A DNA stretch of 64,000 bases from Methylorubrum sp. B1-46 (GTDB taxonomy: Bacteria; Pseudomonadota; Alphaproteobacteria; Rhizobiales; Beijerinckiaceae). Position 1 is the stretch's first letter. The number at the start of each line of letters is the position of its first letter. The translations under genes and the position numbers were made by a program. The stretch is taken from assembly GCF_021117295.1 (NCBI RefSeq), contig NZ_CP088247.1, positions 3,611,001 through 3,675,000 of the forward strand, in the 5' to 3' direction. Below are positions 38,517-51,813 of the stretch, piece by piece. Below the pieces are notes generated by a model, which was given only the letters and a program-made list of their open reading frames with translations, did not search any database and had not been told where the DNA came from.

Positions 38517-39710
38517 TCAGAAGTACGACTTCAGCACGCCGCGGCGGCGCACGTCGAGCGTGGCGCAGTGGAACGAGCCGCCGAACGGGCCGTAGGACAG
38601 GAAGGGGGCCGGGATCGGATCGAAGCCCCAATCCTTCAGGGCCTTGATCAGGGTCGGCTGGCTCTGATCGACGACGATCTTCTTCTCGTCGATGGCGAGC
38701 ACGTTGATCGAGGTCCAGGGCGAGCACATCGAGATCTTGCTCATGAAACCCGAGACCGGGTCGGGGCGCGGCGCGATCAGCACGTCCCACTTCTTGAGCA
38801 CCGCCGGGAGCTTCTCGACGTCGATGTAATCCGGGTTGACCAGCACCTTGCCCGGCGCCAGCGGCATGAACGACGAATCGATGTGCATCGGCTGCGGGCA
38901 GCGGCTCTCGATCTCGTGGATGCGGAAGCCCGGGCCGAGATGGCGGCGCAGCCACTCGATGCCCATCAGGTTCGTCACGTTCGAGCGGGTCACGAACAGG
39001 TCGCGGCCGCAGCGCACGAAGTCGGCGGCGTCGAACACCGGCTCGAACTCGTTGACCGTGAACTGCATCGGCTCGCCGGCCTTCAGGTTCGGCACCCGGT
39101 AGTCGTAGTTGTAGAGGTCGTCGGTGAGCTGCGGACGCGGCGCCGAGGTCCAGCGCGCGCCGGCGCGGAAGTATTCCTTGAACAGCGAGCGGTAGGCATC
39201 GCTCTCGAAGTAGCGCGAGCGCCAGCACATCGGGCTCTCGATGATCTCATCACCGATCACGAGGTACGGGTCGCGCGGGCAGGCGACGCAGAAGCCACGC
39301 GAGGTCCAGCGTGGCGCCTTGAACTTCTTCGAGAAATCGACCGGATCGGGACGGCGCACCTTCACGCCCTCGCCGGCCAGGATCGAGATGAAGTTGTCCA
39401 GCTCCTGCTGAGCCAGCTTCTTCATGAACTTCGGATACTTCCAGCCGGAGGCGAAGCGGTAGAACGGCTGGGCCGCCCGCGGCAGGTTGAAGATCACGGT
39501 GAGGTGATGGGTCGGGATCGTGGCGCCGTCGAGCGAGCCGACGATCACCTCCTCCAGCGGATCCCACTCGTTCCAGGCCATCACCGGGCTGCGGGTGGCG
39601 GGCGAGCGGCCTTCCAACGCGTGGCGGCCCTCGTAGCCCTGCGAAAAACCGTTCGCCGAGGCGTCGTCGATCAGGGCGGAATCCGCCGTGATCTGCGGCT
39701 CGCGATCCAT
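38517..39710 (-). CDS. Arginine:amine amidinotransferase (AGAT/StrB1 family), candidate for guanidinylating hopanoid head group
   Basis: A 397-residue protein. ATG 39710 has GGGAG six bases upstream and is chosen over the longer frame. It aligns with animal arginine:glycine amidinotransferase over most of its length. The catalytic triad is present: Asp227 (PVFDAADFVRCGRD), His276 (PQPMHIDSSF) and Cys382 (GGSFHCATLDVRRRG). The family moves the amidino group of arginine to an amine: glycine in creatine synthesis, an aminocyclitol phosphate in streptomycin synthesis (StrB1). The gene diverges from hpnL at the head of hpnL-M-I-J-K, whose products make an aminocyclitol ether. Guanidine-substituted hopanoid cyclitol ethers are known from Methylobacterium, so I infer that this enzyme makes the guanidine. 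Free glycine as acceptor is the alternative. Confidence 0.85.
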   Translation of the reverse strand: MDREPQITADSALIDDASANGFSQGYEGRHALEGRSPATRSPVMAWNEWDPLEEVIVGSLDGATIPTHHLTVIFNLPRAAQPFYRFASGWKYPKFMKKLAQQELDNFISILAGEGVKVRRPDPVDFSKKFKAPRWTSRGFCVACPRDPYLVIGDEIIESPMCWRSRYFESDAYRSLFKEYFRAGARWTSAPRPQLTDDLYNYDYRVPNLKAGEPMQFTVNEFEPVFDAADFVRCGRDLFVTRSNVTNLMGIEWLRRHLGPGFRIHEIESRCPQPMHIDSSFMPLAPGKVLVNPDYIDVEKLPAVLKKWDVLIAPRPDPVSGFMSKISMCSPWTSINVLAIDEKKIVVDQSQPTLIKALKDWGFDPIPAPFLSYGPFGGSFHCATLDVRRRGVLKSYF

Positions 39711-39921
39711 TTGAGGCTCCCTAGAAGCGGCATCGCGCGACAATCGTCGCCAGCGTCCACCGCGGGCGCCGCTTTGCTCCCCGGTGTGTCAATCGGGTGA
39801 TAGACAGGGCTGGGCAAAGCTGCAACCTGCCGGAACGCTTCCCGCCACCGGCTAAGCTTCGATGGTCGCTTCGGGTGGGATTTCGACAACACAAGCCTTG
39901 GCGATCACTCGAAAGAGGCTG

Positions 39922-41055
39922 ATGAAGCGTCTCACAACACTGGCATCGATCGTGGGACTAGGCACGGCGCTCGCGCTGTTCCTGTCTTCCGGCGTGTCCG
40001 ATGTCACGGCCGCAGTCGTCAGCGCGGGCTGGGGAACGCTCGCCGTCGTGCTGGCCCGCTTCGCCGCCGTCGCCTGGGCCGGTTTCGGCTGGCACACGGT
40101 GTTCCCCCGCGGCGCCGGGCCGACCCTGCGTGACTGCATCTCGCTGCGCTTCGTGCGCGAGGGCATCAACACGCTGCTGCCGGTGGCGCAGGTCGGCGGC
40201 GATTTCATCGGCGCGCGCCTGCTCACCCGCCGCGGCACGCCCGGCGGCATGGCCGGCGCCAGCATGTTCGTCGACCTGATGACCCAGGCGGTCACGCAGC
40301 TCGTCTTCACCATCGCCGGCCTCCTCCTGCTGATGCAGATCACCGGCGACGGGCCGCTGGTCCGCACCGTCGCGGGCGGCGTGCTTCTCGCGATCCCGGC
40401 GCTCGCCGCCTTCTACGTCATCCAGCGCCGCAGCGGTCACCGCCTGATCGAGGCGGCGCTCAGCCGCTTCGCCGCCGGCCGCGAGTGGCGCGCGCTCGGC
40501 GCGATCGACGTGCTCTACCAGAACCTGCGCCGGCTCTACGGCAACCGCGCCCGCGTCGGCGCGGCGCTGCTGATCCACCTCGCCGGCTGGGTCGCCGGCA
40601 CGGTCGAGGTGTGGATCGCGCTGAACGCCATGGGCTATTCCATCAGCTTCGTCGATGCCCTGGTGATCGAGAGCCTCGCCCAGGCCGTGCGCGGCGCCGC
40701 CTTCGTCGTGCCCGGCGCCATCGGCGCCCAGGAAGGCGGATTGATCGCGCTCGGCGCCCTGTTCGGCATCCCGCCGGAGGCCGCACTCGCTCTGTCGCTG
40801 GTCAAGCGCGTCGCCGACCTTGCCGTCGGCCTGCCGAGCCTCGCCCTGTGGAACCTGATGGAGCGCAAGACTGCAGCCTCCCCCGAGCCCGCCGGCGCCG
40901 AGGCCGTTCGCGAAGGACTCGGCGCGATCCGGGCGCGGCTCGGCCGCCGCCTCGCGCCCGCTCCCCTCGCTCCGACCTACGGCTTTCCCGCCGCCCGGAA
41001 CCCGGCCACCCTCTCCCCCGACAACGAAGCTGGAGCGCTCCAGAAGTGCGCCTGA
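39922..41055 (+). CDS. hpnL: HpnL, hopanoid-cluster lysylphosphatidylglycerol synthase-like membrane protein
   Basis: A 377-residue inner-membrane protein. ATG 39922 follows GAGG with short spacing; the upstream frame start at 39862 is less likely. About eight hydrophobic helices are present, with signature segments of the UPF0104/flippase-like family: LRFVREGINTLLPVAQVGGDF, and FVVPGAIGAQEGGLIALGAL near 275. The cytoplasmic tail is Ala/Pro-rich. HpnL proteins occur in hopanoid operons and are proposed to flip or move lipid intermediates, but no biochemical function is proven. The gene overlaps hpnM by 10 bp, so the two are coupled. Confidence 0.9.
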   Translation: MKRLTTLASIVGLGTALALFLSSGVSDVTAAVVSAGWGTLAVVLARFAAVAWAGFGWHTVFPRGAGPTLRDCISLRFVREGINTLLPVAQVGGDFIGARLLTRRGTPGGMAGASMFVDLMTQAVTQLVFTIAGLLLLMQITGDGPLVRTVAGGVLLAIPALAAFYVIQRRSGHRLIEAALSRFAAGREWRALGAIDVLYQNLRRLYGNRARVGAALLIHLAGWVAGTVEVWIALNAMGYSISFVDALVIESLAQAVRGAAFVVPGAIGAQEGGLIALGALFGIPPEAALALSLVKRVADLAVGLPSLALWNLMERKTAASPEPAGAEAVREGLGAIRARLGRRLAPAPLAPTYGFPAARNPATLSPDNEAGALQKCA

Positions 41056-41666
41056 ACCGCCGCACCCTCCTCGCCGCCGCCGCGATCCTCGCCGCTGCGG
41101 GGACGCCGCAGATCGTCCGTGCCGCCGAGGATCCGGCGGTCGAGCCGATCAAGCGCCTCTACGCCAAGTTCGAAGAGGCGCTGAAGAACGGCGCGGGCGA
41201 CCTCAAAAGCCGGCTGGCCATCGTCGGCGATACGCTCGCCGCGACCTTCGACACGCCCGCCATGGTGCGCACCGCCGTCGGCCCGAAGTGGAAGACCTTC
41301 AAGCCCGAGCAGCAGGACGCGCTGACCGAGACCTTCGGCAAGTATTTCGTCACGCTCTACGCCAACCGCCTCTCGCAGGCGGCCGGCGGCAAGTTCGAGG
41401 TCAAGCCGCAGAGCGAAGCGCGCGGTCCCAACCGCGTGGTCTTCACCCACGTCTCGAACAAGGACGGCGACGAGTCGGACGTCGATTACGTCGTCAACGC
41501 GAGCAACCGGGTGCAGGACGTGCTGCTCAACGGCAACGTCAGTGAGGTCGCCTCGATGCGGGCGAGCTTCTCCGATCCGCTTAAGGGCGGCGCCGACGGC
41601 CTGTTGAAATTCATGCTCGAACGCACCGACGGAATGCTCGCCGCCAAAGTCTCGCCCCGAGAGTAG
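41046..41666 (+). CDS. hpnM: HpnM, MlaC/Ttg2D-like periplasmic protein
   Basis: A 206-residue protein from GTG 41046, starting inside the end of hpnL. The signal peptide begins RLNRRTLLAAAAILAAAG, with a twin-arginine-like start, and cleaves near VRA|AED. The mature part is the Ttg2D/MlaC family (YAKFEEALKNG, TFGKYFVTLYANRL, FKPEQQDALTE), periplasmic phospholipid carriers. In hopanoid clusters it is named HpnM and probably shuttles hopanoids or other lipids between membranes, perhaps with the RND protein HpnN. A palindromic element follows immediately. Confidence 0.9.
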   Translation: MRLNRRTLLAAAAILAAAGTPQIVRAAEDPAVEPIKRLYAKFEEALKNGAGDLKSRLAIVGDTLAATFDTPAMVRTAVGPKWKTFKPEQQDALTETFGKYFVTLYANRLSQAAGGKFEVKPQSEARGPNRVVFTHVSNKDGDESDVDYVVNASNRVQDVLLNGNVSEVASMRASFSDPLKGGADGLLKFMLERTDGMLAAKVSPRE

Positions 41667-41679
41667 GGGCTTAGTGTCT

Positions 41680-41746
41680 CTCACAGAACGCCCGCTGCGC
41701 TGCCTTCGCCTGAGCGAGAACGGTCAGCGAGCGGGCGTTTTGTGAG
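41680..41746. repeat. Palindromic repeat family 3, copy after hpnM
   Basis: Left arm CTCACAGAACGCCCGCTGCG at 41680-41699 pairs with the right arm at 41725-41746, which ends GCGGGCGTTTTGTGAG. The middle is CGAGAACGGT. A sister copy follows hpnH at 50966-51032. As RNA each forms a long hairpin, so it may end or stabilise the upstream transcript. Confidence 0.85.
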
Positions 41747-41921
41747 GCATTCTTAGAAGCCATTCCTGCCGCCGAAGCGTCGAGCGTTTCGGCGGCAACG
41801 CGAACCTCAGGACAAAGGCCCGGAGCCGACCGCGACCCGGTTGGGGCGGCATCCGGGCCTTGACCATTCAGGCCGCCGCCCGCGGCCCCCGACCCACGAC
41901 AGCAGCGAGCAACGCCGCGCC

Positions 41922-43118
41922 ATGGACCTGAACGAGCTGCTGGCCTGGATCGCCCCCGTGCTTCTGCTGACGGCGCTCGCCGGCTGCGTCTATGCCCTGC
42001 TCGCCGCCGTTCTCGTCGGCCGCTTCGCCGCCCAAGCCTCTCCCGTTCTTGCAAAAGACGCGCCGCGGCCGAGCGTGACGATCCTCAAGCCGCTCTGCGG
42101 CCTCGAGCCGGACCTGTTCGAGAACCTCGAAACCTTCTGCCGCCAGGATTATGCCGGCCCGCTGCAGGTCGTGTTCGGCGTCCAGAACGCCTCTGACCCG
42201 GCGCTCAGTGTGGTGCAACCCCTGCGCGAGGCCCATCCCGGCCTGCGGATCGATCTCGTGGTGGATGCGAGCCAGCACGGCTCGAACCGCAAGGTCTCCA
42301 ACCTCATCAACATGTCGGAGCGGATCGCCCACGAAATCGTGGTGCTGGCCGACAGCGACATGTCGGTACGGCCCGACTACCTCGAGCGCGTCGTCGCTGC
42401 GCTGTCGCAGCCGGGCGTCTCCGGAGTGACCTGCCTCTATCACGGTGTGCCGGGCGATCGCGGCGTCTGCGCCCAGCTCGCGGCGCTCGCCATCGATGTG
42501 CAGTTCGTGCCCAACGTCATCCTCGGCACCACCTTCGATCTTGCCCGGCCCTGCTTCGGCTCGACCATCGCCATGACGGCGGCCTCGCTCGCCCGTATCG
42601 GTGGCTTCCGCGCCTTCAAGGATGATCTTGCCGACGACTACGCCATCGGCGAAGCCCTGCGCAGTGAGGGCGGCACGGTGGCGATCCCCGCGCTGACCAT
42701 CGGACATGCCTGCGTCGATACCGAGCTGTCGGGCTTGTGGCGGCACGAGCTGCGCTGGAACCGCACCATCCGCAACGTCGATCCCAAGGGCTATGCCGGC
42801 TCGGTGGTCACGCACGCTTTCCCGCTGGCGCTGCTCGCCGCGCTGATCCCCGGTGCCGGGACCGGTGCGCTGGCCGTAGCCGCCCTGGCGCTCGCCTGCC
42901 GCATCGGGCTCTGCCTGCGCATCGAGCGCGCCTTCGGGCTCGCGCCCCACGCCTACTGGCTGTTGCCGATTCGCGACATGCTCTCCTTCGTCAACTTCAC
43001 CTGGAGCTTCGTCTCGGGTGCGGTGACATGGAAAGGTCACGATTACCGTGTGGTTGCGGACGGTACGCTGATTCCGGAGCACGGCCTCGGTCGCGAGTCG
43101 CGCGCGACTTCGGTCTAA
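41922..43118 (+). CDS. hpnI: HpnI, hopanoid glycosyltransferase (N-acetylglucosaminyl transferase)
   Basis: A 398-residue membrane glycosyltransferase of the ceramide glucosyltransferase type (GT21-like). ATG 41922 begins MDLNELLAWIAPVLLLTALA, one membrane helix; the catalytic domain has SVTILKPLCGLEPDLFENLE, the metal-binding DSDMS and the acceptor motif HELRWNRTIR. Three C-terminal helices follow. HpnI is known to add GlcNAc to bacteriohopanetetrol; HpnK then removes the acetyl group and HpnJ contracts the ring. It is the first of three genes in that order, 58 bp before hpnJ. Confidence 0.93.
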   Translation: MDLNELLAWIAPVLLLTALAGCVYALLAAVLVGRFAAQASPVLAKDAPRPSVTILKPLCGLEPDLFENLETFCRQDYAGPLQVVFGVQNASDPALSVVQPLREAHPGLRIDLVVDASQHGSNRKVSNLINMSERIAHEIVVLADSDMSVRPDYLERVVAALSQPGVSGVTCLYHGVPGDRGVCAQLAALAIDVQFVPNVILGTTFDLARPCFGSTIAMTAASLARIGGFRAFKDDLADDYAIGEALRSEGGTVAIPALTIGHACVDTELSGLWRHELRWNRTIRNVDPKGYAGSVVTHAFPLALLAALIPGAGTGALAVAALALACRIGLCLRIERAFGLAPHAYWLLPIRDMLSFVNFTWSFVSGAVTWKGHDYRVVADGTLIPEHGLGRESRATSV

Positions 43119-43176
43119 GCTTCAAACCATTCGCCCTTATACATTCCAACGCTCGAGCCTTGAGGCCTTGAACCCC

Positions 43177-44601
43177 ATGCGCACGCTTTTCCTGCAGGCC
43201 CCCACCTTCGACGGCTTCGATGGCGGCGCCGGCTCGCGCTACCAGGCCAAGCGCGAGATCAAGTCCTTCTGGTACCCGACCTGGCTGGCCCAGCCGGCCG
43301 CCCTGGTGCCGAACTCGAAGCTGATCGACGCGCCACCCCACAACATCAAGCTCGACGAGATCGTGGCCCAGGCCAACGATTTTGACCTCGTGGTGCTCCA
43401 CACCTCGGTCCCGTCCTTCAAGTCGGACGTGAAGACCGTCGAGGCTCTGAAGGCCGCGAACCCCCGACTGATCGCCGGCCTGATCGGCGCCAAGGTCGCG
43501 GTGGACGCCGCCGGCGCCATGGCCCAGGCCCCGTGCATCGATTTCTGCGCCCGCAACGAGTTCGACTTCACCGTCAAGGAAGTCGCCGACGGCGTGCCGA
43601 TGTCGGAAATCAAGGGTCTGTCCTATCGTGATGCCAACGGCGTCGTGGTCCACAACGAGGACCGCGAGATCATGACGGATATGGACCAGCTGCCCTTCGT
43701 CACGAGCGTGTACAAGCGCGACCTCGAGATGGAGAAGTACTTCATCGGGTACCTCAAGCATCCCTACATCTCGTTCTACTCCGGCCGCGGCTGCAAGAGC
43801 CGCTGCACCTTCTGCCTGTGGCCGCAGACCGTGGGTGGACACACCTACCGGACCCGTTCGGTCGCCCACGTGATCGAAGAGATCAAGTACTGCATGAAGG
43901 AGTTCCCGCAGACGAAGGAGTTTTTCTTCGACGACGACACCTTCACGGACAACCTCCCGCGTGCGGAAGAGATCGCCCGCGAGCTGGGCAAGCTCGGCGT
44001 GACGTGGTCGTGCAACGCCAAGGCCAACGTGCCGCGCGAGACCCTGAAGGTGCTCAAGGAGAACGGCCTGCGCCTGCTTCTGGTCGGCTACGAGTCCGGC
44101 AACCAGAAGATCCTGAACAACATCAAGAAGGGCATGCGCGTCGAGGTGGCCGAGAAGTTCACCAAGGACTGCCACGATCTCGGCATCGCCATCCACGGCA
44201 CCTTCATCGTCGGCCTGCCCGGCGAGACCAAGGAGACGATCCAGGAGACGATCGCCTTCGCCAAGCGCATCAATCCGCACACGATCCAGGTCTCGCTGGC
44301 CGCGCCCTACCCGGGCACCTTCCTCTACAAGCAGGCGGTGGAGAACGGCTGGCTCGACGTCGAGAACGCCGAGCTGGTCGATGAGAACGGCGTGCAGATC
44401 GCGCCGCTCCACTACCCGCACCTGTCGCACTCGGAGATCTTCTCGGCGGTCGAGGAGTTCTACCGGAAGTTCTACTTCCGCGCCCCGAAGATCGCCTCGA
44501 TCGTCAATGAGATGGTCCGCTCACCCGAGATGATGAAGCGGCGGCTCCGCGAGGGCGTCGAGTTCTGGCACTTCCTGCGGGACCGCAAGGCCGCCGCGTA
44601 A
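43177..44601 (+). CDS. hpnJ: HpnJ, radical SAM enzyme for cyclitol ether formation
   Basis: A 474-residue enzyme. I take ATG 43177, three codons after an in-frame TTG. An N-terminal B12-binding-like domain (about 1-140) is followed by a radical SAM domain with the 4Fe-4S cysteines Cys206, Cys210 and Cys213 in GRGCKSRCTFCLWP. HpnJ converts the glucosamine-linked hopanoid made by HpnI and HpnK into the five-membered aminocyclitol ether. Helical tail after residue 420. A strong hairpin lies just after the stop codon. Confidence 0.94.
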   Translation: MRTLFLQAPTFDGFDGGAGSRYQAKREIKSFWYPTWLAQPAALVPNSKLIDAPPHNIKLDEIVAQANDFDLVVLHTSVPSFKSDVKTVEALKAANPRLIAGLIGAKVAVDAAGAMAQAPCIDFCARNEFDFTVKEVADGVPMSEIKGLSYRDANGVVVHNEDREIMTDMDQLPFVTSVYKRDLEMEKYFIGYLKHPYISFYSGRGCKSRCTFCLWPQTVGGHTYRTRSVAHVIEEIKYCMKEFPQTKEFFFDDDTFTDNLPRAEEIARELGKLGVTWSCNAKANVPRETLKVLKENGLRLLLVGYESGNQKILNNIKKGMRVEVAEKFTKDCHDLGIAIHGTFIVGLPGETKETIQETIAFAKRINPHTIQVSLAAPYPGTFLYKQAVENGWLDVENAELVDENGVQIAPLHYPHLSHSEIFSAVEEFYRKFYFRAPKIASIVNEMVRSPEMMKRRLREGVEFWHFLRDRKAAA

Positions 44602-44627
44602 CGCCGGTCAGGGACGTTCAAAACCGG

Positions 44628-44655
44628 AATGGCCGGGCCTTGGGCCCGGCCATTT
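44628..44655 (+). terminator. Hairpin between hpnJ and hpnK
   Basis: AATGGCCGGGC at 44628-44638 pairs perfectly with GCCCGGCCATT at 44644-44654. The U-tract is poor (TTCCGTTTCC), so it may cause partial termination or RNA protection between the two genes. Confidence 0.55.
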
Positions 44656-44726
44656 CCGTTTCCGGGGCTCCGCCCTGGACCCCCGAGAGGGCTTGCCCTC
44701 TCGACACCCGAGAGAGGGGGCAGAGC

Positions 44727-45569
44727 TTGAAGCGACTGGTCGTCACCGCCGACGATTTCGGCCTCAGCCGTGAGGTCAACGAGGCCGTGGAGCAGGCCCA
44801 TCGCGAGGGTATCCTCACCGCCGCCAGCCTGATGGTGTCGGCACCCGGTGCGGCCGATGCCGCCGCCCGCGCGCGACGCACGCCGTCCCTCCGGGTCGGG
44901 CTGCACCTCGTCCTGGTCGAGGCTTGGCCGACCCTACCGCCCGCAGAGCTGCCCGACCTGACGGACGGGCAGGGGCTGATGCGGCGCGACATGGAGCGCC
45001 TCGGCCTCGATCTCGCCCTGAAGGCGCCCGCCCGGCGGCAGCTCGCTACCGAGATCCGGGCGCAGTTCGAGGCGTTCCGCGCGACCGGCTTGCCGCTCGA
45101 TCACGTCAACGCGCACAAGCATTTCCACATCCACCCGCTGATCGCCGGCCTCGTGCTGCGCATCGGCCGCGATTTTGGGATGCGGGCGTTGCGGGTGCCG
45201 CGCGAGCCGCGCGACCTGCTGCGGCGGGCCGAGCCCAGCTTCCAACCGAAACCCGCCTTCGACACCGCGCCCTGGGCGGCGCTGCTTGCCCTGCGCGCCC
45301 GGCATGCCGGCCTGCTGATCCCAGCCCGAACGCTCGGCCTCGCATGGTCGGGTGCGATGACGCCGGAGCGCGTCACCGCCCTGTTGCGCCATCTGCCGGA
45401 CGGGCTGACCGAACTCTACACCCATCCCGCGACGGCCGGCGGCTTCCCCGGCGAGGCGCGTGGCTACCTCTACGCGGCCGAACGCGACGCCCTGGTCGCA
45501 CCGCAGGCGCGGGACGCCGCCGAGCGCAGCGGCGCCGAGCGGGGCGGCTTTTCGGATTTTCTCGCCTGA
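44727..45569 (+). CDS. hpnK: HpnK, YdjC/ChbG-family deacetylase
   Basis: A 280-residue enzyme from TTG 44727, preceded by a strong GAGGGGG site six bases away. The YdjC deacetylase metal motif begins VVTADDFGLSREVNEAVEQA, and the His pair sits in VNAHKHFHIHPLIAG. HpnK removes the acetyl group from the GlcNAc-hopanoid, leaving the free amine found in the cyclitol ether. It completes the HpnI-HpnJ-HpnK set. The free amine is the expected acceptor of the amidinotransferase encoded at 38517-39710. Confidence 0.9.
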   Translation: MKRLVVTADDFGLSREVNEAVEQAHREGILTAASLMVSAPGAADAAARARRTPSLRVGLHLVLVEAWPTLPPAELPDLTDGQGLMRRDMERLGLDLALKAPARRQLATEIRAQFEAFRATGLPLDHVNAHKHFHIHPLIAGLVLRIGRDFGMRALRVPREPRDLLRRAEPSFQPKPAFDTAPWAALLALRARHAGLLIPARTLGLAWSGAMTPERVTALLRHLPDGLTELYTHPATAGGFPGEARGYLYAAERDALVAPQARDAAERSGAERGGFSDFLA

Positions 45570-45836
45570 GCCTCATTGCGATGGGACGGCCGGCATCGGT
45601 GTGAAGCGGCTTCGCGCGAGAGCCCGCAGGTGATCGGGCGCCCTGACCTCGGGCTTAGCCTCGACACGGGTGGCCGTCTCCGGTGCGCGCAACCTCCGAA
45701 CGCTGATCGAAATCAACGCCGTTCGACGCGCCGGGAGGCATCCTGCGAGGAGAACCACGCCCGAAGGCCGACGGCATCAGGATCCGCCGGGGCGACGACC
45801 GGGCGAACCACTCCAGGGCCGGGAGAACCCAGATCC

Positions 45837-46352
45837 ATGAGACGACGCGCCGCCCTCGGATCGCTCGGCCTCGCGGCGGGCCTGGCCGTTGCGTTGGCGG
45901 GCGCCCCCGCCCGATCCGCGGGCCTCGATTGCGGTCCGCCCTCGGCGCCGCATCCGGAGGCCGATGCCGTCCTGACCCAGGCGATCCTCTCGCCGCAACT
46001 CGACGAGAAGGCGGGCGCGGCACTCGCGTCAGCGGTCCGCCGCCTCACCAGCGCGGGCGTGCCCCGTGCAGTCATCGTCGACCGTGCCGTCGCCGCCTAT
46101 TGTCCGCTGGTCGCCCGCGACGGAAGCCTGACGCTCGATCGCCAGCGCGAGGCGGTCCGCCGCTTCGCTTCCACGCTGACGAGCCTCGTCTACGATCCTC
46201 CCGAACCGAACCAAGGTGAGACCGCGTTCATCCTGAGCCTGCCGGTCAGGCCGGCGCTGTCGCTGCAGATCGATGCCGCCGCCGCCAAGGCGGGGAAGAC
46301 ACGCGACGCCTGGATTCTGGAGGCGATCCAGGCGCGGCTGGCGGGCGACTAA
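45837..46352 (+). CDS. Secreted hypothetical protein with ribbon-helix-helix-like C-terminus
   Basis: A 171-residue protein from ATG 45837, with GGGAG about 11 bases upstream. A signal peptide (LGSLGLAAGLAVALAGAPARS) is clear. The mid-region has two Cys residues that could form a disulfide (LDCGPPSAP and AAYCPLVA). The last 45 residues, LSLQIDAAAAKAGKTRDAWI onward, look like a CopG/Arc ribbon-helix-helix, which is odd for an exported protein. Probably the last gene of the hpnL-K transcript; it converges on hpnN with a 22-bp gap. Function unknown. Confidence 0.65.
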   Translation: MRRRAALGSLGLAAGLAVALAGAPARSAGLDCGPPSAPHPEADAVLTQAILSPQLDEKAGAALASAVRRLTSAGVPRAVIVDRAVAAYCPLVARDGSLTLDRQREAVRRFASTLTSLVYDPPEPNQGETAFILSLPVRPALSLQIDAAAAKAGKTRDAWILEAIQARLAGD

Positions 46353-46374: not shown

Positions 46375-49023
46375 CTACTTCACCGCCGCGGGCTCGCGCG
46401 CCACCTCACCGGCCGACCGGCCGGCTTCCGTGCCTTCGGGACGGTCGGCATCCGGATGCTTCGGCGGCGGCCCGAGGAAGGCCGGCACCACGAAGAACGC
46501 GGCGATCAGGGTGAAGAACAACGACAGCGCGAGCAACTCGCCCATGCTGGCGGTGCCGGGATGGCTCGACAGGATCAGCGAGCCGAAGGCTGTGCCCGTG
46601 GTCATCGCCGAGAAGAAGATCGCCCGCGTCAGGCTGGAGGCGAGCATGTCGACGACGCCGGCGCGCCACGCGATGACGTAGTAGATGTGGAAGGCCACAC
46701 CGACTGCCAGCATCAGGGGCAGGGCGATGATGTTGGCGAAGTTCAGCGGCATGCCGATGACCTTGAGCGCCATCAGCGTCCACAGGGTCGCCAGCACCAG
46801 CGGGCCCAGCGTCATCGCTACGTCCCAGGGTTTGCGCAGGGCGACCGAGAGCAGGATGAAGATCAGCGCGAGCGCCGTCAGGCCCGCCTGCACGAAGGCG
46901 CCGAGGATGGTGTAGCTCGATTCCGTCGTCGCCACCGGCGCGCCGGTGGCGTGGGGATCGACCGTCTGCACCTCGTTGGCGAAGCGGCGCAGCACCTCGT
47001 CGTTGTTCGAATCGCCCTTCGGGTGAACCTCGATGCGGGCGCGGCCGTCGCTCGTGACCCACTCGGCCTTGAGGGGCTTGGGCAGGTTGTCGAGGGTGAT
47101 CTTTTTCGGGTCGAGCAGCCCGGCCAGGCGGCTCATCAGCGTCTTCAGGTCGGTGGTGAGCGCGACGCTCGCCGCCTCGCGCTTTTCCGCGGGCGCGGCG
47201 GCCAGCGTGTCGAGGGTGCCAGAGAGGCGGTCCGCCGCCTTGGCGCCGGCCGAATCGCCGCCGGCGATGGTCTTCAGCGCCGCGGCGGTGTCCTTCAGCG
47301 CCTTGACGTTCTCGGCATCCGTCGGCGGCGGCGGCTTGCGGGCCGGGTTGAGCGCCGGGCCGAGGAGCTGCGCCGTCTCCTGGATGGTGGCGAGCTTCTG
47401 GTCCTGGTCGCGCGGCACGAAGGTATCGATCGAGATCACCTTGGCGACCGCCTCAAGCCCCTCCAGGCGCTTGGTCAGTTCGGGCACGGCATCGACGTTC
47501 GGGGCCAGCACGTCGATCGAGTTCGGACTGGTCGCCGGATCCTTGATCAGGTCGAGATAGGTCGCGATCGACTCCACCTTCGGGCTGCGAAGGTGCATCG
47601 GGTTGGAATCGAACGGCAGCTTCAGGAGCAGGGGGATGCCGGCGACGGTGATGAGGCCGACGAAGATCAGCACCCACTTGCGGTGCTCGATGATCCAGTG
47701 ATCGACGCCCGCCATCCACGTCGTCTCGACCGCCCGCTTCTCGCCGCGCGGGTTGAACACCGCGATCAGGGCCGGGAGCAGGGTCAGCGAGAACAGATAG
47801 GCTACGATCATGCCGACGCCGGCGATGAGGCCGAGTTCGGACACGCCGCGGAACTTCGTGGGCAGGAAGGCGAAAAAGCCGGCGAGCAGCGAGATCGCCG
47901 CAAGCGTCAGCGACCAGCCGACGCCCCGCGCCGCGCCGCGAAGCGCGGAATCGACGTCGCCGAGTTCATAGCGGTCGGCGCGGTAGCGCACGGCGAACTG
48001 GATGCCGAAATCGATGCCGAGGCCCACGAACAGGGCGGCGAAGGCCACCGAGATCGGGTTCAGCTCGCCCACCATGAGGAGGCCCAGGGCCGCCGTGACG
48101 ACGAGTCCCGAGAAGGTGGTGATCAGGACCGCCACGACGAGCGGGCCGGAGCGCAGGGCGAGCCACAGGAACAGGACGATGGCCGCCGTCGTCAGCGAGT
48201 AGTTCAGGAAGGCGTCGTCGGCGAGCGTGGCGAACTCGTCGTCGGCCACCGCCACCGGGCCGGTCAGGCGGATGCGCAGGCCGTGGGCCGCGTCGATGTT
48301 CTGCTCGGCGGCCACGCGTCGGATCAGCTTGGTCGCCTCGCGGCCCGGCTCCAGCGCATTGTAGTCCAGCACCGGCTGGATCATCACGAACTTGCGCTTG
48401 TCCGTGGTCTCGCTGCGCCCGCCCGCGAGCAGGGTCTGCCACGACATGCGGGCGCGCTGCCCGTCGAGGGCTTTGCGCAGCGTCTCGTCGATCTGCGTCA
48501 TCGGCTGGGCGAGGTCTTCGAGCTTGGCGTCGCCGCTCTTCACGCCCTTCACGCCGAGGCTGAGCACGCGCATCACGCCGCGCAACGACGGATCGGCGGC
48601 CAGCGGCCCGAGAAGGCCCTGCTGCTCGATCAGCCGCTGGGTCGTCTGCTCCAGCTCCTCCTGCGACATCAGCAGGAGGCCGTTGCGATCGAAGAACGGG
48701 CCGCCATCGGGCCGGTAGACGGTCTCGATCTCGGAGCGGTGCGATTTCAGGGCCTCGGCGAAGCGCGCCGCCCCCTCTTCGGCGATCTCCGGCGTCTCGC
48801 CGTCGATGACGGCGGCCACGAGGTTCGTGCGCTGCGGGAATGCCTTCTCAAAGGCGATCTCGTCCTGGCGCCAGGGAACGCTCGGCTCGATCAGCCGCTC
48901 GACATCGGTGTTGATGCGGAACATGTGGGCAGCGGTGCCCGCGCCCGCCACCGTGAGGAGCGCCGCGGCCACCAGTACCAGCCAGCGGCGCCTGACGGAA
49001 AACGCGACGAGACGTTCGATCAC
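46375..49023 (-). CDS. hpnN: HpnN, hopanoid RND transporter
   Basis: An 882-residue RND/MMPL-family protein with about 12 membrane helices in two halves. It starts MIERLVAFSVRRRWLVLVAA, then a large periplasmic domain (about 45-250), a helix bundle (250-430) with GLGIDFGIQFAVRYRADRY, the family signature, a second periplasmic domain (about 460-690) and the final helix bundle. HpnN moves hopanoids from the inner to the outer membrane. It is convergent with the secreted-protein gene and divergent from hpnH across a long spacer. Confidence 0.93.
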   Translation of the reverse strand: MIERLVAFSVRRRWLVLVAAALLTVAGAGTAAHMFRINTDVERLIEPSVPWRQDEIAFEKAFPQRTNLVAAVIDGETPEIAEEGAARFAEALKSHRSEIETVYRPDGGPFFDRNGLLLMSQEELEQTTQRLIEQQGLLGPLAADPSLRGVMRVLSLGVKGVKSGDAKLEDLAQPMTQIDETLRKALDGQRARMSWQTLLAGGRSETTDKRKFVMIQPVLDYNALEPGREATKLIRRVAAEQNIDAAHGLRIRLTGPVAVADDEFATLADDAFLNYSLTTAAIVLFLWLALRSGPLVVAVLITTFSGLVVTAALGLLMVGELNPISVAFAALFVGLGIDFGIQFAVRYRADRYELGDVDSALRGAARGVGWSLTLAAISLLAGFFAFLPTKFRGVSELGLIAGVGMIVAYLFSLTLLPALIAVFNPRGEKRAVETTWMAGVDHWIIEHRKWVLIFVGLITVAGIPLLLKLPFDSNPMHLRSPKVESIATYLDLIKDPATSPNSIDVLAPNVDAVPELTKRLEGLEAVAKVISIDTFVPRDQDQKLATIQETAQLLGPALNPARKPPPPTDAENVKALKDTAAALKTIAGGDSAGAKAADRLSGTLDTLAAAPAEKREAASVALTTDLKTLMSRLAGLLDPKKITLDNLPKPLKAEWVTSDGRARIEVHPKGDSNNDEVLRRFANEVQTVDPHATGAPVATTESSYTILGAFVQAGLTALALIFILLSVALRKPWDVAMTLGPLVLATLWTLMALKVIGMPLNFANIIALPLMLAVGVAFHIYYVIAWRAGVVDMLASSLTRAIFFSAMTTGTAFGSLILSSHPGTASMGELLALSLFFTLIAAFFVVPAFLGPPPKHPDADRPEGTEAGRSAGEVAREPAAVK

Positions 49024-49795: not shown

Positions 49796-50959
49796 TTGGG
49801 AATCCCCATACGGTACGTCGCGAAGATCGGCGGCTACATCCTCAAGCAGCACATCACGGGGCGGAAGCGCTACCCGCTCGTCATGATGATGGAGCCGCTG
49901 TTCCGCTGCAATCTCGCCTGTGCCGGTTGCGGGAAGATCGATTACCCCGACGAGATCCTGAACAAGCGCCTGCCGGTGGACGAGGCGCTGGAATCGGTGC
50001 GCGAGTGCGGCGCACCCGTGGTCGTGATCGCCGGCGGCGAGCCTCTCCTCCACAAGGATCTGCCGCAGATCGTGCAGGGCATCATCGCGCAGAAGAAGTT
50101 CGCGATCGTCTGCACCAACGCGCTGCTGCTTGAGAAGAAGATCAAGGAGTACAAGCCGAGCCCGTACTTCACCTGGTCGATCCATCTCGACGGCGACAAG
50201 GAGATGCACGACCAGTCGGTGTGCCAGCGCGGCGTCTACGACAAGGCGGTGGCGGCCATCGCCAAGGCCAAGGAGATGGGCTTCCGGGTCACCATCAACT
50301 GCACTTTCTTCAACAACTCGTCCGCCGACAAGATCGCCGACTTCTTCGATTCGGTGACCCGCATGGGCATCGACGGCATCACCGTCTCGCCGGGCTACGC
50401 CTACGAGCGCGCGCCGGACCAGAAGCACTTCCTCAACCGCAAGGCGACCAAGGACCTGTTCCGCGGCGTGTTCCGGCACGGCAAGGAGAAGGGCCGCGAG
50501 AAGTGGACCTTCCAGCAGTCGGGCCTGTTCCTCGACTTCCTGGCCGGCAACCAGTCCTACCACTGCACCCCGTGGGGCAACCCGACCCGCACCGTGTTCG
50601 GCTGGCAGAAGCCCTGCTACCTGCTCGGTGAAGGCTACGCGGCGACCTTCAAGGAGCTGATGGAGGAGACCGACTGGGACGCCTACGGCACCGGCAACTA
50701 CGAGAAGTGCGCCGACTGCATGGTCCACTCGGGCTACGAGGCCTCCTCGGTGGTCGATTCGGTCAAGAAGCCGTGGAAGCCGCTGGTGCACGCGATCCGC
50801 GGCATCAAGACCGAAGGCGACATGGCGCCGGAGATCTCTCTCGAGAACCAGCGCCCGGCCGAGTTCGTGTTCTCGCGCAACGTCGCCCAGAAGCTCTCCG
50901 AGATCAAAGCCTCGGGCGTCGACACCAAGCAGGAAGCCCGCAAGCGCACCGCTGCCTGA
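49796..50959 (+). CDS. hpnH: HpnH, radical SAM adenosylhopane synthase
   Basis: A 387-residue enzyme starting at TTG 49796, with AAGGAG seven bases upstream. The cluster cysteines are Cys38, Cys42 and Cys45 in LFRCNLACAGCGKID. HpnH joins the 5'-deoxyadenosyl group of SAM to diploptene, giving adenosylhopane, the first step of the extended C35 side chain. The C-terminal part (CYLLGEGYAATFKELMEETD, and a Cys pair in YEKCADCMVHSG) is typical of the family. A palindrome follows the stop codon. It is transcribed away from hpnN and toward hpnG. Confidence 0.95.
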   Translation: MGIPIRYVAKIGGYILKQHITGRKRYPLVMMMEPLFRCNLACAGCGKIDYPDEILNKRLPVDEALESVRECGAPVVVIAGGEPLLHKDLPQIVQGIIAQKKFAIVCTNALLLEKKIKEYKPSPYFTWSIHLDGDKEMHDQSVCQRGVYDKAVAAIAKAKEMGFRVTINCTFFNNSSADKIADFFDSVTRMGIDGITVSPGYAYERAPDQKHFLNRKATKDLFRGVFRHGKEKGREKWTFQQSGLFLDFLAGNQSYHCTPWGNPTRTVFGWQKPCYLLGEGYAATFKELMEETDWDAYGTGNYEKCADCMVHSGYEASSVVDSVKKPWKPLVHAIRGIKTEGDMAPEISLENQRPAEFVFSRNVAQKLSEIKASGVDTKQEARKRTAA

Positions 50960-51135: not shown

Positions 51136-51813
51136 TCACGCCACCCCGAGATCGGGTCCGAGCCGGGTGCGGCAGCGGGCGAGCGACGCGAAGGCCGCCG
51201 AGGAATCGCGGCCGAGCCGGATCAGCTCGCCGATCCGGGCGCGCCCTCGCAGCAGCGCGCCGAGCACGGCCCGAATGTCAGGCTCGCCCTCCGGCGTGAG
51301 GGCCGTAGCCGCGAAGGCGGGCAGGGCGCGCTCGGCCGGGTCGCAGACGACCCGAAGCGCCGCGAAGGGGAGGGCGTGGCGGGCCGCATAGGCGGCGGCC
51401 ACGTGCGATTCCATATCGACCGCCAGAGCGCCGGTGCGCGCATGCAGGCTCCCCTTGTCGGCAATCGTCATGACCGCGACGTCGGAGCCTGCGAGGCCGC
51501 CGGCGGCAACGCGGCCCGGCAGCCCGTGCAAGGCTTCGAACAGGCGGCGGCCGATCGCGGGATCGGCCGGAAACCGCGTCTGCGCATCGAGATGCGTAGC
51601 GACGACGACGTCACCCGGTCTCAGGGCAGGATCGAGGCCGCCGGCGATCCCGAAGCTGACGACCGCGCGCAGACCGTGCGAGGGACGCTCGTCGAGTGCC
51701 CGCCTCAGACGGGCGGGATTGCCGCCGGCCTGGATCGTCTCGATGCCGGGGCCCGCGGCGATACGGGCCTCGCGGGCCAGACCCATCACCGCCAGAACCG
51801 TGCCGCCTGCCAT
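51136..51813 (-). CDS. hpnG: HpnG, hopanoid-associated nucleoside phosphorylase
   Basis: A 225-residue member of the nucleoside phosphorylase superfamily. Signature segments are SFGIAGGLDPALRPGDVVVA (phosphate/ribose region) and ALAVDMESHVAAAYA (ribose/base region with Met-Glu). HpnG acts after HpnH, releasing adenine from adenosylhopane to give the ribosyl-type intermediate on the way to bacteriohopanetetrol. In this genome it is on the opposite strand to hpnH and only 30 bp after a polysaccharide export gene, rather than beside hpnH in an operon. Confidence 0.9.
   Translation of the reverse strand: MAGGTVLAVMGLAREARIAAGPGIETIQAGGNPARLRRALDERPSHGLRAVVSFGIAGGLDPALRPGDVVVATHLDAQTRFPADPAIGRRLFEALHGLPGRVAAGGLAGSDVAVMTIADKGSLHARTGALAVDMESHVAAAYAARHALPFAALRVVCDPAERALPAFAATALTPEGEPDIRAVLGALLRGRARIGELIRLGRDSSAAFASLARCRTRLGPDLGVA

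Follow-up and report, generated by a model that had tools for sequence, protein, structure and literature searches.

An arginine amidinotransferase gene beside hopanoid genes

In a stretch of 64,000 nucleotides of Methylorubrum sp. B1-46 (NZ_CP088247.1, positions 3,611,001 to 3,675,000; hereafter the window), we detected a reverse-strand gene (38517..39710) that encodes an arginine amidinotransferase of 397 amino acids from an ATG, proposed here to be an aminohopanoid amidinotransferase. The open reading frame (38517-39743, reverse strand) would give 408 amino acids if started at TTG. The ATG at 39710 is codon 12 of this longer frame, so that a start at the TTG (39743) would lengthen the protein by 11 residues; matches to homologues often start at codon 11 or 12. 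The catalytic triad of the family is intact (D227, H276 and C382), as the initial annotation had reported, and its residue numbers fit the 397-residue form.

In PDB, phmmer matched SxtG (452 bits, E-value 2e-134), human AGAT (348 bits, 6e-103), HsvA (324 bits) and StrB1 (257 bits, 3e-75); the matches to SxtG, AGAT and StrB1 each cover at least 340 residues. By full-length similarity and the triad, the protein belongs to the AGAT/StrB1 family, with its five-bladed beta/alpha propeller fold, and amidino transfer is the predicted reaction. Pfam-A assigned no family to it and no NCBIfam model exceeded its cut-off, despite the solved structures of the family, and a search of its own genome with PF02274 gave no match. 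Since neither Pfam-A nor NCBIfam has a model naming this protein, homologues were sought by protein query. The gene is single-copy in the genome of the window. Of 115 matched loci, 114 retain the triad and the other is a fragment; the three residues are also present in all 136 close homologues.

The gene is divergent from hpnL (39862..41055, forward strand; TIGR03476, PF03706), which encodes a flippase-like membrane protein; the two are separated by an intergenic stretch at 39711..39861 if the ATG start is right. On the forward strand follow an hpnM-like gene (41046..41666), the glycosyltransferase hpnI (41919..43118; TIGR03472), the radical SAM protein hpnJ (43168..44601; TIGR03471) and the deacetylase hpnK (44640..45569; TIGR03473, YdjC). 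This is the gene order of the initial annotation, and HpnL (378 bits), HpnI (442 bits), HpnJ (815 bits) and HpnK (346 bits) all exceed their NCBIfam cut-offs. The label hpnM stands only as HpnM-like, with 94 bits against a cut-off of 160.

Hopanoid genes extend beyond the interval initially annotated (38517..46352). The hopanoid transporter hpnN (46375..49023, reverse strand) exceeds the cut-off of TIGR03480 and lies just under that of NF052374 (1097.9 versus 1100 bits). The adenosylhopane synthase hpnH (49796..50959, forward strand; TIGR03470) and the hopanoid-associated phosphorylase hpnG (51136..51813, reverse strand; TIGR03468) are also over curated NCBIfam cut-offs.

Linkage to hpn genes and co-occurrence with HpnJ

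In 80 of 80 Methylobacteriaceae loci, the amidinotransferase and an hpnL match are divergently arranged, with 118-311 bp between the two matches. These loci are the best 80 of 112 relatives in a scan of named genomes and come from Methylobacterium or Methylorubrum, plus one "Methylobacteriaceae bacterium". HpnI and HpnJ are present in all 80 and HpnK in 79, and the linkage of the amidinotransferase to hpn genes exceeds chance.

Co-occurrence was examined in 199 genomes of the family of the window, in a class sample of 385 genomes and in a phylum sample of 398; genomes with an HpnJ match over cut-off were counted as HpnJ-positive, and the Fisher tests ignore kinship. Any amidinotransferase match was found in 34 genomes of the family sample. 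Clade A comprises 17 of these at 72% identity or more and clade B 15 at 57-62% (one a fragment), and two weak matches (G060, 42%, and G128, 29%) were excluded from both. HpnJ is found in 43 of the 199 genomes: in 17/17 of clade A versus 26/182 of the other genomes (p 2.5e-13, kinship ignored), and in 0/15 of clade B (p 0.045, likewise). In one clade B genome (G102), the HpnJ match is split in two (540 and 100 bits), neither part reaching the cut-off, and matches to hpnI and hpnK adjoin it. Enzyme and HpnJ share a contig in 15 of the 17 clade A genomes, 0.9-6.0 kb apart, and are on separate contigs in G145 and G160. All ten same-genus genomes of the family sample carry the enzyme and HpnJ over cut-off. 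The copy of one same-genus genome (G108; C111:9777-10961) has an internal TGA, which may reflect a sequencing error or a pseudogene.

The class sample has 24 genomes with a match and 29 that are HpnJ-positive. Four reach at least 64% identity (two genomes from the genus of the window, plus G254 and G381) and all four are HpnJ-positive; eight have 37-40% identity over most of the protein, none of them with HpnJ, and 12 others are weaker. With the genus of the window removed, HpnJ is present in 2/2 versus 25/381 genomes (p 0.005, kinship ignored), the two being from other alphaproteobacterial families; in the family of G254, the gene occurs in one of seven genomes. All 19 clade A genomes tested are HpnJ-positive (17 from the family sample and two from the class sample). 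Among the 18 phylum-sample genomes with a match, none of the nine tested has HpnJ over cut-off, and two with 53% matches outside Alphaproteobacteria (G867 and G1047) lack HpnJ over cut-off and fall outside clade A. Clade A is thus confined, in the family and class samples, to genomes with HpnJ, i.e., those able to make the aminocyclitol ether.

Linkage to hopanoid genes also survives rearrangement. Besides the divergent arrangement with hpnL (80/80), the amidinotransferase sits between hpnN and hpnK in one locus (L085) and head-to-tail with HpnL in two others (L106 and L108). In G254 (L106:9536-11805), this HpnL scores 264 bits (cut-off 196), and hpnI and hpnJ lie on another contig with their own cluster HpnL (333 bits; L121:8175-9122). 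Of the two close homologues in G381, the first is head-to-tail with HpnL (232 bits), apart from hpnIJK, and the second has no HpnL match within its 15 kb. Both rearranged genomes are HpnJ-positive. The amidinotransferase-linked HpnL of G254 groups in the HpnL tree with copies from the family of the window (support 96/94), apart from the cluster HpnL of its own genome, which suggests joint transfer. That group also contains HpnLs from two genomes that lack the enzyme (G133 and G037); this type of HpnL is therefore not special to the amidinotransferase. A single clade of amidinotransferase-linked HpnLs was sought but could not be established: the tree implies three label changes, and uniting all 15 was rejected (approximately unbiased test, p-AU 0.034), while unity without G381 was not (p-AU 0.229). 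We suggest only tentatively that the enzyme and HpnL together constitute a transferable module, in which a hopanoid amine might become a permanent cationic guanidine and HpnL might move the lipid across or between membranes.

In the amidinotransferase tree (53 rows), clade B is firm (support 100/99, 16 rows) and clade A softer (94/93, 23 rows), with 21 of the clade A rows united at 100/99. Among the best 120 of 4739 proteins, those from Microvirga, Enterovirga, Paramagnetospirillum kuznetsovii, Paraburkholderia adhaesiva and Burkholderia sp. H160 are in clade A. Sixteen positions are fixed, at 90% or more, to different residues in clades A and B; the A set of this comparison is 16 loci and 120 proteins assigned by identity, not all of them in the tree. 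At the site of human AGAT Arg322, which we take to bind the arginine carboxylate, Tyr is found in the window protein, in 132 of the 136 A rows and in 16/16 B rows. Of 13 distant rows, 11 have Arg there; a StrB1-type control (L146) also has Arg.

Clade B has a neighborhood of its own. In 14 of 15 loci of the family (L086-L096, L098, L100 and L101), the enzyme gene and a SugE-like SMR gene converge, no more than about 150 bp apart, and the two of these SMR genes that were scanned are over the SugE cut-off. One of two Bradyrhizobium plasmids shows the same convergent gene (L147:7947-9423); the table of the other shows none. This unstudied pair of amidinotransferase and exporter may serve the synthesis and export of a small guanidino compound. 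In clade A, the same search gave a single weak match (35% identity), 2.4 kb from the enzyme gene in locus L014. An amidinotransferase with 48% identity is encoded on a Streptomyces plasmid (L148:1792-15554) amid an apparent natural-product cluster, with genes for a TauD-type dioxygenase, a methyltransferase, a dehydrogenase, an ATP-grasp protein and an MFS protein.

Proposed role in guanidine-substituted hopanoids

We propose that 38517-39710 very probably encodes an arginine:aminohopanoid amidinotransferase yielding guanidine-substituted bacteriohopanetetrol (BHT) cyclitol ether (BHT-CE). According to PMC12583986, which cites Schmerk et al. 2015 for the HpnI, HpnK and HpnJ steps to BHT-CE, HpnI puts N-acetylglucosamine on BHT, HpnK liberates the amine and HpnJ converts the sugar to the aminocyclitol ether. 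The amidino group of arginine would then be taken onto C382, together with H276 and D227, with release of ornithine, and transferred to the free amine. The product would be guanidine-substituted BHT-CE, a lipid of permanent positive charge that HpnL may place or flip. This is a strong genomic inference: the family, the triad, the gene linkage and the co-occurrence with HpnJ are observed here, and the HpnI, HpnK and HpnJ steps and the Methylobacterium product are taken from the literature. From these we infer the substrate, the donor, the reaction and the role of HpnL.

The initial annotation had also stated that Methylobacterium makes the guanidine-substituted compound, and PMC5358736 does state that M. 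extorquens produces BHT-CE and its guanidine form. Guanidine-BHT-CE has been credited to Methylobacterium since Renoux and Rohmer 1985 and proposed as a sediment marker (PMC5642901). The sources given in PMC5642901 are methylotrophs (with Renoux and Rohmer 1985 and Knani 1994 cited), Zymomonas mobilis (Flesch and Rohmer 1989), Geobacter sulfurreducens (Eickhoff 2013), Gloeocapsa, Dolichospermum and Aphanizomenon. In agreement with the earlier statement that no enzyme is known for this step, we found no enzyme or gene assigned to it in the open-licence literature searched, and it may be assigned elsewhere. With the family, triad, neighborhood, genus chemistry and HpnJ co-occurrence as described, the transfer of the arginine amidino group to the hopanoid aminocyclitol, as first suggested for this locus, is supported as a prediction.

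Several observations weigh against this proposal. The clade A gene is lacking in 26 of the 43 HpnJ-positive genomes of the family sample, so the guanidine step would be optional. A 2025 study reported 63 structures from 54 cultures (PMC12583986, consulted in part), including Methylobacterium soli, M. oxalidis, Methylorubrum rhodesianum, M. aquaticum and Enterovirga rhinocerotis. Three of these species carry the gene (loci L058, L024 and L002), and the main text of the study does not contain the string "guanid" (0 occurrences); the compound was either absent under those conditions or not looked for.

The remaining difficulty is Zymomonas, which PMC5642901, in the same partial text, credits with guanidine-BHT-CE. 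HpnJ is over cut-off in 17 of 219 Sphingomonadaceae genomes, and none of these 17 has an amidinotransferase match with the query that matched 34 genomes of the family sample. Four of them belong to one genus (g339), identified as Zymomonas by the plasmid identity of two; the three inspected (L102; G602 and G746) have hpnI, hpnJ, hpnK and hpnL together and no amidinotransferase. In the available portions of two papers, Z. mobilis was the source of purified BHT, BHT-glucosamine and BHT-CE, the last with a free amine (PMC4676935), and its membrane was modelled with BHT-CE and BHT-glucosamine (PMC12969272), with no mention of guanidine in either portion. As Zymomonas lacks the homologue yet is credited with the compound, either the attribution is wrong or another enzyme exists. 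Zymomonas is accordingly a fitting negative control, or a counter-example if that one attribution is right. With hpnIJK and hpnL and no amidinotransferase, it is also a ready host for a gain-of-function experiment.

The acceptor could instead be BHT-glucosamine, before the action of HpnJ, so that guanidinylated BHT-glucosamine would be the first product and perhaps be processed further. PMC5642901 reports guanidine-substituted BHT-glucosamine in Dolichospermum BIR53 and in a culture of Nostoc, and the cluster contains both hpnI and hpnK; we nevertheless consider this order of steps unlikely, given that every clade A genome tested carries HpnJ and that it is the cyclitol ether that M. extorquens is stated to make in guanidine form. 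The molecule names of the close solved relatives, among them HsvA with its title of polyamine amidinotransferase, indicate action on soluble amines, and the sister clade B adjoins a SugE-type exporter, which would fit a small exported guanidino compound. A soluble product from glycine, a polyamine or another amine, made without action on hopanoids despite the hpn neighbors, is for the window protein a distinctly improbable alternative, in that clade A tracks HpnJ and HpnL through rearrangements and differs from clade B at the 16 fixed positions.

In G254 and G381, the closest partner of the enzyme is HpnL and not hpnIJK, and HpnL, with a presumed cargo, is named only "putative membrane protein" in NCBIfam. 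Another membrane amine, e.g., an aminolipid, could on these grounds be guanidinylated with HpnL as handler. We give this very little credence, as both genomes also have HpnJ and as HpnL occurs in hpn clusters without the amidinotransferase. If the aminohopanoid assignment is true, the gene lets sources of guanidine-BHT-CE be predicted from genomes, provides a clean mutant to ask what a permanently cationic hopanoid does, and represents an amidinotransferase with a lipid acceptor.

Comparison with known amidinotransferases and hopanoid pathways

SxtG acts in another pathway, on a small-molecule acceptor. This saxitoxin-pathway amidinotransferase (PDB 6u1r) is the nearest solved relative of the window protein, ahead of StrB1, and has no hopanoid link. 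The inosamine-phosphate amidinotransferase StrB1 (PDB 1bwd), to which the enzyme had initially been compared, has the same fold and an aminocyclitol acceptor, which is the chemistry proposed here. The comparison holds at the level of the family but not of the nearest relative; orthology was rejected, since the window protein does not fall with the StrB1-type proteins in the tree and has Tyr in place of the StrB1-type Arg at the AGAT Arg322 site. AGAT (GATM, PDB 1jdw) uses glycine as acceptor and likewise differs by its Arg322 from the Tyr of most close homologues. The acceptor of HsvA (PDB 5wpi) is, by the title of the entry, a polyamine, again with no hopanoid link. A 2007 paper (PMC2242806) states that, in prokaryotes, the synthesis of antibiotics or toxins was the only setting in which members of the family had been shown to work. 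In the window, the neighbors of the amidinotransferase are the genes of the HpnI-HpnK-HpnJ pathway, which makes the free-amine acceptor; as described in the available text of PMC12583986, that pathway stops at the free amine, and the guanidine step proposed here would be additional to it.

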